64,000 bases of DNA, from the NCBI RefSeq assembly GCF_037975215.1, contig NZ_CP150239.1, positions 2,580,001 to 2,644,000 on the forward strand, read 5' to 3'. Positions 17,806 through 37,627 of the stretch are shown here, piece by piece. Position numbers and translations under genes: made by a program. The notes below the pieces were generated by a model. That model saw only the letters and a program-made list of their open reading frames with translations, made no database searches and was not told where the DNA came from. The DNA comes from Solibacillus sp. FSL R5-0449. GTDB taxonomy: Bacteria; Bacillota; Bacilli; Bacillales_A; Planococcaceae. The stretch's first letter is position 1, and each line of letters starts with the position of its first letter.

Positions 17806-17926
17806 TTTTAGTCAAGTTATTTATCATTTTAGTCATCTTATTTAGCAATTTAGTCAACGCTACTTGCTATTTGGCCAACTTCGGCATTTTTTTAGTCATA
17901 CTAAGAGAGATTTTAGTCAAAGTAAA
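17806..17926 (+). repeat. Six-copy array of a TTTTAGTCA motif at exact 21-bp spacing
   Basis: Copies start at 17806, 17827, 17848, 17869, 17890 and 17911. Four read TTTTAGTCA, one reads ATTTAGTCA and one reads ATTTGGCCA. The 12 bp between copies are much less conserved. The spacing equals two helical turns, so every copy faces the same side of the DNA. The array lies in the 330-bp gap between the 47-aa gene and the sufB terminator. I see nothing else in this gap. Confidence 0.85.
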
Positions 17927-34284: not shown

Positions 34285-34611
34285 TCATCCTTCGTTTACT
34301 ATAAATTTTGCTTGTAGTAACATATCCCTTAAGATTTTAGTAGGTGTTTTTTCTACTTCCACATATTCGTGAGGTATGATAAGCTGTGTCGCTTCGGGAT
34401 ATGCACGGTTCATCAGTTTACGTAACTTTTCACCGTTTTTATCTGCATCAAACATAGTCGTAATTTCATCTTGCTCATATTCATCCAATAAATCAATTAA
34501 ATTGACTTCACTTATTGTGCCATTCGTGCAAAGTATCGTCACGTCTTCCGCTAATATCGGAAGTATTCTCAGTTTATCGGCACGTCCTTCAACAACGATG
34601 CATTTTCCCAT
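34285..34611 (-). CDS. yusF: Toprim-domain protein YusF
   Basis: A 108-aa protein made of a single Toprim domain. The N-terminal glutamate motif is KCIVVEGRADK. The DxD-type motif is TMFDADKNG near residue 70. Small stand-alone Toprim proteins resemble the RNase M5/primase catalytic core and need Mg2+. The exact substrate here is unknown. The start is the ATG at 34611, with GGAAG eight bases before it. A longer frame upstream crosses the gcvH terminator and is unlikely. It matches B. subtilis YusF in position. Confidence 0.87.
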   Translation of the reverse strand: MGKCIVVEGRADKLRILPILAEDVTILCTNGTISEVNLIDLLDEYEQDEITTMFDADKNGEKLRKLMNRAYPEATQLIIPHEYVEVEKTPTKILRDMLLQAKFIVNEG

Positions 34612-34660
34612 AGTACACGCTTCCTTCCATCCATCACCTTTATATATAGAATAACAAAAA

Positions 34661-34695
34661 AACACTAAAACCTTTAATTAGAAGGCTTTAGTGTT
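34661..34695 (-). terminator. Terminator after gcvH
   Basis: The stem aacactaaaacctt / aaggctttagtgtt is followed on the minus strand by a T run. It ends the gcvH transcript before yusF. Confidence 0.88.
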
Positions 34696-34713
34696 TGGTC
34701 TTATTGTTTAATC

Positions 34714-35094
34714 TTATTGTTCGATTAATGCAGTGTAAGCGTCTGCGTCTAATAATTCTTCAACTTCTGCTTCACTTGTTAACTCAACAGTAACCATCCA
34801 TGCATTACCGTATGGTGATTCATTTACATATTCAGGATTGTCCAGTAATTCTTCGTTGATTGCAACAACTTTACCAGAAAGTGGTGCATATAGTTCAGAA
34901 ACTGTTTTTACAGATTCTACACTACCGAAAGGCTGATCCTTTGAAATTTCATCGCCTACTTCAGGTAACTCTACGAATACGATATCGCCTAATTCAGATT
35001 GTGCGAAATCCGTAATACCGATTGTCGCTTTACCGTCTTCAATTTTTACCCACTCATGCTCTTTTGAATAACGTAATTCTTTTGGTGTGCTCAT
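34714..35094 (-). CDS. gcvH: Glycine cleavage system H protein
   Basis: A 126-aa lipoyl carrier protein. The lipoylated lysine is K63 in the classic ESVKTVSE turn. The rest follows the family from [10 protein letters not shown] to the final [17 protein letters not shown]. GcvH shuttles the aminomethyl group between glycine decarboxylase and GcvT. In Bacillus it is also the entry point for lipoate transfer to 2-oxoacid dehydrogenases, which links it to lipA at 11765. The other gcv genes are not in the window. GGAGG precedes the ATG. Confidence 0.97.
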
Positions 35095-35174
35095 TTGAAA
35101 ACCTCCATGTTATATGTAGTACATTCAAGTTCATTTTGCCATATTTCGTTCGGAAATACAATGTGAATAACTGT

Positions 35175-35531
35175 TTATTTCCAAGTTTCTAAGAAGTCAG
35201 ACTCCTTAAATCCTAAAGTTAATTTTTTTCCATCTGTAACGATCGGTCGCTTAATTAACATACCATCCGATGCTAATAGCTCTAATTGCTCATCTTCGGA
35301 CATTGTCGGTAGTTTATCTTTTAGGCCTAACTCACGATATTTCATACCTGAAGTATTAAAGAATTTCTTCAACGGTACACCGCTTGCTTCGTAAATGGCT
35401 TTAAGTTCTTCTTTCGATGGTGTCTGTTCTACAATATGAATATTTTCATAGTCCACACCTTGCTCATCTAGCCATTTTTGCGCTTTTTTACAAGTTGTAC
35501 ATTTTGGATATTGGATGAATTTTATTGTCAT
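35175..35531 (-). CDS. yusI: ArsC/Spx-family protein YusI
   Basis: A 118-aa member of the ArsC-like (Spx/MgsR/YusI) thioredoxin-fold family, equal in length to B. subtilis YusI. The N-terminal motif YPKCTTCKKAQKWL holds a CxxC pair. Arsenate reductase activity is not implied, because the family includes transcription regulators and proteins of unknown role. LIKRPIVTDG is the usual cis-Pro region. I chose the ATG at 35531, preceded by AAGGAG. The upstream DNA carries the motif array at 35623-35793. The gene order yusI-gcvH is as in B. subtilis. Confidence 0.88.
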   Translation of the reverse strand: MTIKFIQYPKCTTCKKAQKWLDEQGVDYENIHIVEQTPSKEELKAIYEASGVPLKKFFNTSGMKYRELGLKDKLPTMSEDEQLELLASDGMLIKRPIVTDGKKLTLGFKESDFLETWK

Positions 35532-35622
35532 GTAAGTACTCCTTTTTGCCCTGGATTTTCCTATATTGTAACGGATATAGAAGGACAAATCAAAAATGTG
35601 TTCGCATGATCGGAGCGGTTTT

Positions 35623-35793
35623 TATTAGAAGATGTATGAAAATATTAGAACATGCCGGACTTATATTAGAAGAACGGTTTCACTTATTTGAACCTTTGCG
35701 TGACATATTAGAAAATATAGTACTTATATTAGAAGTTCCAATATATATTAGAACTTCTGAAATTATATTGGAACATTTTACGATTTATTAGAA
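35623..35793 (+). repeat. Nine-copy array of a TATTAGAA motif at about 21-bp spacing
   Basis: TATTAGAA or one-base variants start at 35623, 35643, 35664, 35685, 35706, 35727, 35746, 35766 and 35786. The spacings are 20, 21, 21, 21, 21, 19, 20 and 20 bp. Seven copies are exact, one is TATTTGAA and one is TATTGGAA. The DNA between copies is mostly unrelated. The array fills the gap between yusI and the fadE terminator. From 35532 to 35622 I see nothing further. Confidence 0.85.
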
Positions 35794-35805
35794 AACGATA
35801 GAAAA

Positions 35806-35831
35806 ATCGGGTGCACTTTCATGCACCCGAT
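35806..35831 (-). terminator. Terminator of the fad operon
   Basis: The perfect stem atcgggtgca / tgcacccgat with a six-base loop, followed by a T-rich stretch on the minus strand, lies 12 bp after the fadE stop. Confidence 0.9.
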
Positions 35832-35842
35832 GACAGTCTTTA

Positions 35843-37627
35843 TTAAACTACATACTTTTCTGCTTCGATTAGTTTCGCTGCAGCTACACGTTTTTTCGGA
35901 ATTAAGTTGTAAGGGTTGTTGCGCGTTAATTTACGTAATGCTGATAAAATCATACGTGCATCGTCACCTTCAACTGAAGCGATTAATGTTTCTTTTGCTT
36001 CTTTTTCGATTTCTGCGAATGCTTCCTGACAGAAAATTTGAGTGTAAAGAATTTTTTGTGCTGCTTTTTCTTCACCGTCACGCTCGATAGCTTTTTGTGT
36101 ACGGATTACTGCAGATTCCATTGCGTATAATTGGTTTGCAATGTTTGCGATATTAACTAACAGCTCTTGCTCTGCATCCAGTTTTGCACCGTAGCGTTGT
36201 GCTGCTGCACCTGCTGCAAGTACTGCGATCTTCTTAGCATTTTTCACTAAGTATTTCTCTTGCTCTAATGCACCTTGACCGATTTCTTCAGGCATAAGCA
36301 TTAATAGCTCGTTTTGAAGTTCTTGTGCTACTTGTAATAGTGGTAACTCACCTTTTAATGCTTTTTTCATGAATGTGCCTGGTACGATCATACGGTTAAT
36401 TTCGTTTGTACCTTCAAAAATACGGTTAATACGAGAGTCGCGGTAGATGCGTTCTACTTCGTACTCAGCCATAAAGCCGTAACCACCGTGTAACTGAACC
36501 GCTTCATCCGCTACGAAATCCAATGTTTCAGAACCGAATACTTTTGCGATTGAGCACTCAATTGCATATTCAGCGATTGCTGCTGCAATTGATTTGCCGT
36601 CTTTTTGCTCTTCGTCAGATAACTGGCTTAAGCGGTCTTCGAAGTAACCAACTGTACGGTAGTTTAACGATTCAGATGCATAAATGTGAGAAGCCATTGA
36701 TGCGATCTTTTCTTTTGTTAAGTTGAAGTCCGATAATTTTGTTTTGAATTGCTGACGTTGGTTTGTATAAGCAACTGCTAATTCAAATGCACGTTTAGAT
36801 GCACCTACAGTACCTACTCCTAATTTATAACGTCCGATATTTAAAATGTTGAACGCGATAATATGACCGCGGCCTACTTCACCTAGTAAGTTTTCTACAG
36901 GTACTTCTGCGTCTTCCAAAATTAATGTACGAGTTGAAGATGATTTAATCCCCATTTTCTTCTCTTCAGGACCTACAGAAACACCTGGGAATGAACGCTC
37001 AACGATGAATGCTGTAAATTTATCGCCATCGATTTTCGCGTATACAACGAATACATCTGCAAAGCCTGCATTTGTAATCCATTGTTTTTCACCATTTAAT
37101 ACGTAATGTGTTCCTGCTTCATTTAACTTAGCAGTTGTTTTAGCACCTAATGCATCCGAACCTGAACCTGGCTCTGTTAATGCATATGCTGCGATTAAAG
37201 CGCCTGAAGCCAACTTCGGTAGGTACTTCGTTTTTTGCTCATGGTTACCGAATAATACGATTGGTAATGAACCGATCCCTACATGGGCACCGTGCGTGAT
37301 TGAGAAACCGCCAGCCGGTGACATTTTTTCTGCGATTAATGCAGAAGAAATTTTATCTAAGCCTAAGCCTTCGTATTCTTCAGGAACGTCAGCTGCTAAT
37401 AAACCTAAATCCCCTGCTGTTTTTAATAGACGTACAGAGTGATCGAACTCATGGTGCTCTAAGTTTTCAACTACTGGTAATACTTCGTTTGTTACGTATT
37501 CCTGTGTTGTTTGAGCAATCATTTTTTGCTCGTCTGTGAAATCTTCCGGTGTAATTACTCGGTTAATATCCACGTCCTCGATTAAAAAGCCGCCGCCCTT
37601 AATAATGCTGTTTGTTGTTTGTGCCAT
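35843..37627 (-). CDS. fadE: FadE, acyl-CoA dehydrogenase
   Basis: A 594-aa flavoprotein that makes trans-2-enoyl-CoA in the first step of fatty-acid beta-oxidation. The acyl-CoA dehydrogenase core (about 30-420) has YALTEPGSGSDA, ITNAGFADVFVV and the C-terminal core motif QLHGGYGFMAEYEVERIYRD, followed by FEGTNEINR. A C-terminal extension of about 170 residues is typical of this long Bacillus type. The length equals B. subtilis FadE (YusJ) when started at the ATG at 37627, which has GGGAGG eight bases upstream. It is the last gene of fadN-fadA-fadE. Confidence 0.95.
   Translation of the reverse strand: MAQTTNSIIKGGGFLIEDVDINRVITPEDFTDEQKMIAQTTQEYVTNEVLPVVENLEHHEFDHSVRLLKTAGDLGLLAADVPEEYEGLGLDKISSALIAEKMSPAGGFSITHGAHVGIGSLPIVLFGNHEQKTKYLPKLASGALIAAYALTEPGSGSDALGAKTTAKLNEAGTHYVLNGEKQWITNAGFADVFVVYAKIDGDKFTAFIVERSFPGVSVGPEEKKMGIKSSSTRTLILEDAEVPVENLLGEVGRGHIIAFNILNIGRYKLGVGTVGASKRAFELAVAYTNQRQQFKTKLSDFNLTKEKIASMASHIYASESLNYRTVGYFEDRLSQLSDEEQKDGKSIAAAIAEYAIECSIAKVFGSETLDFVADEAVQLHGGYGFMAEYEVERIYRDSRINRIFEGTNEINRMIVPGTFMKKALKGELPLLQVAQELQNELLMLMPEEIGQGALEQEKYLVKNAKKIAVLAAGAAAQRYGAKLDAEQELLVNIANIANQLYAMESAVIRTQKAIERDGEEKAAQKILYTQIFCQEAFAEIEKEAKETLIASVEGDDARMILSALRKLTRNNPYNLIPKKRVAAAKLIEAEKYVV

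Follow-up and report, generated by a model that had tools for sequence, protein, structure and literature searches.

An array of nine phased cores between two minus-strand genes

The DNA analysed here (the window) is a 64,000-nucleotide stretch of a 3.58-Mb Solibacillus genome, referred to as G000, and contains an array of short direct repeats in the gap between an acyl-CoA dehydrogenase gene and an ArsC-family gene. Both genes are on the minus strand, the former with its 3' end and the latter with its 5' end toward the array, and the intrinsic terminator of the acyl-CoA dehydrogenase gene adjoins the repeats. A preliminary description had placed the array between the fadE terminator and yusI on the minus strand, and Pfam assignments and hairpin folding confirm this arrangement. 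The features are as follows, with positions counted in the window.

17807..17919, plus strand: second array with another core, six cores of TTTAGTCA (one of them TTTGGCCA) at strict 21-bp steps
35175..35531, minus strand: ArsC-family gene (named yusI in the preliminary description), 5' end toward the array; open reading frame, Pfam PF03960
35596..35803, no strand: approximate extra DNA relative to five array-free congeners; edges set by eye in A-rich sequence, ±5 bp
35623..35793, plus strand: nine-core phased array, module B of an element family, recognised by its cores and steps; geometry common to 50 of 53 elements in the genome
35623..35630, plus strand: core 1, TATTAGAA
35643..35650, plus strand: core 2, TATTAGAA
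35664..35671, plus strand: core 3, TATTAGAA
35685..35692, plus strand: core 4, TATTTGAA, the most frequent form of copy 4 in the family (24 of 50)
35706..35713, plus strand: core 5, TATTAGAA
35727..35734, plus strand: core 6, TATTAGAA
35746..35753, plus strand: core 7, TATTAGAA, 19 bp past core 6
35766..35773, plus strand: core 8, TATTGGAA
35786..35793, plus strand: core 9, TATTAGAA
35806..35831, minus strand: intrinsic terminator hairpin of the acyl-CoA dehydrogenase gene, adjoining the array; -19.1 kcal/mol, z -4.65
35843..37624, minus strand: acyl-CoA dehydrogenase gene (named fadE in the preliminary description), 3' end toward the array; open reading frame, Pfam PF00441/PF02771

Seven of the nine cores are exact copies of TATTAGAA, and core-to-core steps of 20, 21, 21, 21, 21, 19, 20 and 20 bp match the nine copies at 19-21-bp spacing that had been reported. 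The spacers are 11-13 bp long and mutually unlike (mean identity 0.34), and a four-core block that precedes many other members of the family is absent upstream of this array. A scan of the window for any 7-mer recurring in at least four copies at near-regular steps returned just two arrays, this one and the one at 17.8 kb, and the same scan of dinucleotide shuffles of the window and 20 pieces of family genomes (2.32 Mb) returned no chains. The 17.8-kb array has a terminator-like hairpin to its right, and five congeners carry similar arrays. A search of Rfam with positions 34500-37000 gave two matches, both below the gathering score and neither over the nine-core array.

The same locus can be followed through the genus. 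Cores are found there in all eight congeneric genomes that carry the anchor pattern defined below, with copies lost in G003, a shifted spacer in G006 and one duplicated unit in G005. Five congeners (G001, G008, G009, G011 and G012) have a short gap without an array, G015 has unrelated DNA at this position, and in G002 and G013 the neighbouring gene differs.

A family of two-block elements in one genome

An anchor pattern of three cores (TATTAGAA-N11-TATTAGAA-N12-TATTAGAA, at most three mismatches) matches G000 at 53 places, 32 forward and 21 reverse, and the same pattern read backwards has no match in this genome. These matches, together with arrays of a second core family, TTTAGYCA, at a few further G000 loci, bear out the suggestion that the array belongs to a genome-wide class. 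At least three further TATTAGAA array places (near 192.7, 333.9 and 3114.0 kb) lie outside the anchor list. Tandem copies at four loci (L024, L035, L037 and L051) put several of the 53 elements within one shared gap, so that they are not independent.

The nine-core unit recurs in 50 of the 53 elements with steps of 20/21, 21, 21, 21, 21, 19, 20 and 20/21 bp, one unit deviating by 1 bp; the steps of 19 and 20 after core 6 are preset by the search pattern, and the other six were free within 19-21. Three elements are without the full unit, and 51 satisfied a second rule and were used in the ortholog, linker and terminator work described below. Core bases T1, T3, T4 and G6 are nearly invariant, with copies 3-5 weaker. 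The spacers vary across the family, but the bases adjacent to the cores are biased (V-W-W after a core and W before it).

In 28 of the 51 elements the nine-core block (block B) is preceded upstream by a block of four cores at steps of 21, 21 and 21 bp (block A). The distance from the last core of block A to the first of block B is 81-82 bp in 19 of these 28 elements and 71-72 bp in 4, with 102 bp (81 plus one 21-bp unit) in 2, 131-132 bp in 2 from a tandem cluster and 50 bp in 1. A single ancestral 10-bp deletion could be an alternative origin of the two preferred distances.

The elements are unevenly spread along the chromosome: about 740 kb between 1.87 and 2.61 Mb hold a single anchor match, at 2.26 Mb, versus eight within 2.615-2.728 Mb. 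GC skew places the origin near 0 and the terminus near 1.65 Mb. A reading as replication-linked sites was rejected: a hand count of the 53 matches gave 30 with the fork versus 23 against it, no clear link to replication direction, and 35 on one arm versus 18 on the other.

Placement at gene 3' ends beside terminators

We compared the positions of the elements relative to genes with control gaps from the window and from pieces of other family genomes. Read relative to the array, the flanking open reading frames are oriented ++ at 21 of the 53 elements, +- at 20, -- at 10 and -+ at 2, which puts the upstream gene on the strand of the array in 41. The orientation relative to genes is not fixed; the preliminary description had noted the same relative orientation for the two arrays of the window. 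Divergent gene pairs flank 2 of 53 elements versus 53 of 271 control gaps (Fisher P 0.004). Of 51 elements, 45 have a hairpin with a T-run no more than 130 bp away on one or both sides; this was so for 157 of 600 slots placed at random and, among non-divergent control gaps 100 bp or longer, for 82 of 152 (P 5e-6 for the latter comparison). This folding test supersedes one limited to perfect stems, which found them upstream of 2 and downstream of 9 of the 51 elements (45 of 2000 in the control) and was replaced because it missed imperfect stems. The arrays favour gene 3' ends next to terminators. It could be held against a functional placement that 3'-end gaps might simply tolerate insertions.

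Inspection of the neighbouring translations by eye (four proteins were also searched against Pfam) revealed no functional theme. A recA-like gene, recognised by eye, lies just upstream of TATTAGAA arrays at L035 (G000, 1.078 Mb) and at L354 (G243, C19), two loci in different genera with different array architecture. An enolase-like gene, also recognised by eye, is followed by an array in G000 (L051), G001 (L340) and G002 (L342).

Conservation of cores, spacers and linkers

Sister-species conservation was assessed in 41 pairs of orthologous arrays, comprising 19 loci each against G005 and G007 and the 35623-35793 locus in G004, G010 and G014. Orthology was assigned by flank similarity, one-sided in some pairs, under a rule of at most 14 total core mismatches that favours conserved arrays; the arrays of G003 and G006 at the 35623-35793 locus failed this rule. 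The regions from G005 and G007, 20 each and part of the arrays of those genomes, were selected from the anchor listing.

Cores differ at 81 of 2952 sites (2.7%) versus 900 of 4048 spacer sites (22%), and in each of the 41 pairs the spacers have the higher rate. A recount with the other six copies, made because copies 6-8 had served to retrieve the arrays, gave 62 differences in 1968 core sites. Within the spacers the substitution rate depends on position, being 0.07-0.14 at positions 2, 3, 12 and 13, 0.27 at position 1 and 0.42 mid-spacer. Spacer length is altered in 5 of 328 intervals, every one of them the first interval of an array; 60-bp flanks show 110 and 90 indel events per 2239 and 2305 columns, figures inflated by the end gaps of forced alignments. 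The linker between the two blocks behaves similarly in length. Among 18 ortholog pairs with a clear block A (four of 22 were excluded, block A being unclear in one member), linker length is equal in 9 and differs by ±1 bp in 9, and the nine equal-length linkers differ in sequence at 254 of 651 sites.

The contrast between cores and spacers, together with the kept spacer and linker lengths, thus indicates that core sequence and helical spacing are constrained. Shared placement and sister-species conservation, which the preliminary description had made decisive for a genome-wide class, are both found. Since words and spacing are kept between species while the intervening DNA drifts, a protein probably grips the words, and the substitution pattern would roughly fit a series of protein footprints held at one helical phase. 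The pattern is unlike the trace expected of a coding sequence or a folded RNA.

Distribution in the genus and family

The anchor pattern is present in 8 of 16 congeneric genomes and absent from the other 8. Matches number 18-21 in G003 and G004 and 29-58 in a group of six species; G001, G002 and G013 have 2-5 simpler array places, and in five species of the genus no TATTAGAA arrays were found at up to two mismatches. A one-gene tree with weak deep forks is compatible with stepwise growth of copy number. Across the family, triplets of TATTAGAA at 21 bp (at most two mismatches) occur in 17 of 261 genomes and 3 of 19 genera, the matches in G149 looking coding. Among 397 genomes of the class, 2 have four cores at 21 bp (at most three mismatches); both belong to this genus, and the 353 from other families have none. 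With the anchor absent from 8 of 16 species and triplets absent from 244 of 261 genomes, TATTAGAA arrays are thus dispensable in general.

A second genus carries the same core in another layout. In G233 and G243, units of 103 bp consist of four cores (steps of 21, 21 and 21 bp) and a 40-bp gap and are often tandem, with near-identical spacers at some G243 loci.

Arrays with the same period and other cores

De novo scans that allowed any period from 14 to 30 bp were run on stretches of other family genomes and of genomes outside the family. We identified 13 intergenic arrays with a period of 20-21 bp in 1.14 Mb from the family (5, 5 and 3 in three samples), with 3 more flagged inside open frames, versus none in 0.83 Mb from outside it (0.73 Mb plus 0.10 Mb of E. 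coli), a split with a chance of about 0.0008. The outside pieces have a higher mean G+C content, and detection in them may be slightly lower for that reason. Two pieces of the first family sample (L371 and L376) had been picked over already known matches, and without them 10 arrays remain in 1.10 Mb (P 0.004). The third family sample consists of long-contig genomes, some with arrays known beforehand, and three pieces (L399, L416 and L421) read as N. Other periods (15, 16, 25, 26 and 30 bp) gave a handful of repeats, in the family and outside it alike.

The cores, read by eye, differ between genomes and include TTGGCTAT, GCAAATAAA, ATTCRACCGAT, CYACCACWTAA, CGCGGGTATT, TTAATAGACAAT, CTGATAGAA, AGCSGAWTAAA, CGTTGTAA, TATCCGCYACTTT and TATTGCGCGATTTT. 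The preliminary description had taken a TTAG core to define the class, which does not hold for family arrays at 20-21 bp with cores such as AGCSGAWTAAA, GCAAATAAA and TATTGCGCGATTTT. A terminator-like structure is present on at least one side of 9 of 12 other-core arrays tested, a set made up of arrays from the earlier samples, the 17.8-kb array and one flagged inside an open frame. Three copies of AGCCGATTAAA at 21 bp have 49 matches in G085, in about fourteen places as read from the list, versus 0-2 in its eight congeners; six genomes from other genera have none. That related genomes share the period and differ in their cores would fit a binder whose specificity shifts between lineages.

In G042 (L365, from 13945) there is a 37-copy, near-identical 21-bp repeat of the form AATACCCGCGGAAGC..., and in G043, of the same genus, an array (L422, 15179) has the reverse-complement core CGCGGGTATT; the two are possibly a minisatellite-like and a dispersed state of one core. 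G235 (L433, 8432 and 13499) contains two 50-52-bp tandem repeats of another type, which carry CTTGTCCATGAGATGC-like words. An exact scan of genome contigs for five TTAG copies was set aside as having no bearing on the array class, many phyla being represented among the matches listed.

Comparison with known repeat systems

Plasmid iterons and centromeres (oriV; parC and tubC) consist of direct sites about two turns apart that place bound subunits on one face, and parC and tubC have two blocks with a spacer. Such arrays usually occur once per replicon beside their own rep or par genes, whereas the arrays here are about fifty dispersed chromosomal copies. The genes next to the array at 35623-35793 are not rep or par genes by Pfam, the neighbours at other loci having been judged by eye from translations. 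In LytTR operators (AgrA, ComE, VirR), direct repeats of 9 bp come in pairs separated by 12-13 bp, with a period of about 21 bp; such operators comprise two sites at a promoter, whereas the arrays here comprise 9-13 at a terminator. CRISPR-type arrays have longer repeats and spacers acquired from outside and lie near cas genes, in contrast to the 8-bp cores and the spacers inherited at orthologous loci found here, where the four neighbouring proteins searched are not Cas.

REP/BIME elements lie at gene 3' ends. They are short extragenic elements, dispersed in the genome, to which proteins bind (PMC2817692). REPs are palindromes in alternating orientation, in contrast to the one-way direct repeats without a folding signal seen here: the core is not palindromic, and the mean z of the minimum free energy is +0.23 and -0.24 for the two strands of 51 units. 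BIMEs, iterons, centromere arrays and LytTR operators thus share single features with the arrays.

STAR elements of Staphylococcus are nearest in form, but their consensus and spacing fail to fit. They have a 14-bp GC-rich core, T(G/A/T)TGTTG(G/T)GGCCC(C/A), with at least 40 bp between cores, and spacers that are often near-identical within a locus at variable copy number (PMC3532100). The likeness extends to intergenic direct-repeat cores at many loci, locus-specific spacers kept within lineages, strongly species-dependent copy number and lack of a known function (PMC3532100). Cores here are 8 bp long, AT-rich and helically phased, nine (plus four) in number, with unlike spacers; intergenic direct repeats and locus-specific spacers are shared with STAR elements as described there, and the 14-bp consensus and the spacing of at least 40 bp are not. 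The TAACTGA heptamers of Beggiatoaceae and Cyanobacteria are abundant and patchy intergenic short direct repeats; in a Beggiatoa genome most of them precede a start codon by a few nucleotides, and the sections of that report at hand describe no helically phased variable spacers of the kind seen here (PMC4679880). A literature search in which subscription journals were little covered returned no description of phased arrays of this kind in this family.

Proposed phased binding sites and boundary role

Starting from the observed family, its geometry, its placement and the constraint on its cores and lengths, we put about equal weight for and against a reading in which the array is one of some fifty chromosomal multi-site arrays for a putative sequence-specific DNA-binding protein, with a proposed boundary function. 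One site would consist of the 8-bp core and a few base pairs on each side. Because the sites repeat at two helical turns, bound subunits would all be aligned along the same side of the helix. Where the element is complete, four-site and nine-site blocks stand 71 or 81 bp apart, a difference of one turn, so that a single nucleoprotein particle of about 310 bp probably brings the bound blocks together. The protein's target would be DNA rather than RNA. Such particles would sit at the 3' ends of transcription units next to intrinsic terminators, and we propose that they act there as roadblocks or topological fences against read-through, separating neighbouring or convergent transcription. A search for the binding protein yielded no candidate, LytTR genes being present in 4-6 copies in all 16 congeners with or without arrays.

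A broader version, possible and on the whole doubtful, would make this a family-wide system. A dedicated binder of drifting specificity would coat phased arrays at tens of unit ends, each as a two-block particle on one face, acting as an insulator, a terminator fence or a distributed anchor, and its sites would be rebuilt genome-wide when specificity changes.

Intergenic repeats in bacteria are frequently regarded as relics. In these arrays, constraint at the level of single bases distinguishes a core that is kept, a spacer that is free and a linker of which the length is kept, and function and helical geometry thus become readable from sequence alone. The arrays are ready bait for finding the putative binder, and a core that changes between lineages at constant period makes the co-evolution of a binder with its genome-wide sites directly testable. 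If the boundary idea is true, bacteria would have a protein-based insulator beside their intrinsic terminators.

Alternative explanations

Among the rivals, a mobile element that is now a relic or has been tamed is the strongest; it accounts for the spread in the genus and not for the constraint on cores. In its inert form, which we regard as unlikely, the elements would be non-autonomous MITE-like relics whose cores were end-binding sites of a lost transposase and which spread ancestrally, with a preference for terminators. MITEs are characterised by terminal inverted repeats and a target-site duplication. Copy number climbing along the genus from none through 2-5 and 18-21 to 29-58 speaks for this, as do the array-free locus in five congeners, with edges that fall in A-rich DNA, and the ends of Mu- and Tn7-type elements, in which a spacer likewise separates two blocks. 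Even decay would be expected of an inert relic, however, whereas the cores of orthologs have changed eight times less than their spacers. In addition, 19 of 21 regions in each of G005 and G007 can be matched through their flanks to an element of G000, so that the elements now rarely move. Relic and function can be combined, the elements having spread by some route and then been kept by use. Neutral minisatellites that grew by slippage, with a 21-bp unit arising by chance, are very improbable: the tandem 103-bp units of G243, the 37-copy repeat of G042 and the duplicated unit of G005 at the 35623-35793 locus are of the kind expected, but unlike spacers (0.34) between kept cores, and a nine-core geometry repeated in 50 elements, are not given by slippage.

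A site acting in RNA seems quite improbable. Read-through 3' RNA would then contain UAUUAGAA nine times, as a target of an RNA-binding protein or a small RNA, in keeping with arrays that often lie just past terminators and with an upstream gene on the array strand at 41 of 53. The near-zero folding scores of both strands and the lack of an Rfam match over the array count against it, and RNA sites would not require a two-turn spacing or a linker held to ±1 bp; a structure-free protein site at the RNA level is compatible with the sequence. A coding origin, in which the 21-bp period would encode the seven-residue units (ILE..) of a coiled coil in an open frame, is scarcely credible. In one frame L-E recurs every seven codons over the first six cores, and an 88-aa open frame spans the array, but with the 19-bp step past core 6 the frame is lost in every element scored, and there is no strong codon periodicity (182, 141 and 169 substitutions at the three positions, of 573 each). 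Readings as RNA structure, coding sequence, minisatellite or LytTR operators fare worse than phased protein binding.

Phage origin was rejected: the five matches in a scan of viral contigs are short core runs with similar spacers or simple sequence, and the nine-core layout occurs in none. The LytTR idea was prompted by the 21-bp pair spacing of such operators and by the CTCAGTTAGAA core of G093, and was rejected in turn, since the number of LytTR genes, 4-6 in 16 of 16 congeners, does not follow the presence of arrays and the LytTR consensus does not fit TATTAGAA. LytTR-family matches with internal stops are present in three array-bearing species, at C1:2331300-2331509 in G006, C1:193700-193846 in G007 and C13:30102-30218 in G005, and these matches are the apparent counterpart of an intact 321-aa frame in G000.
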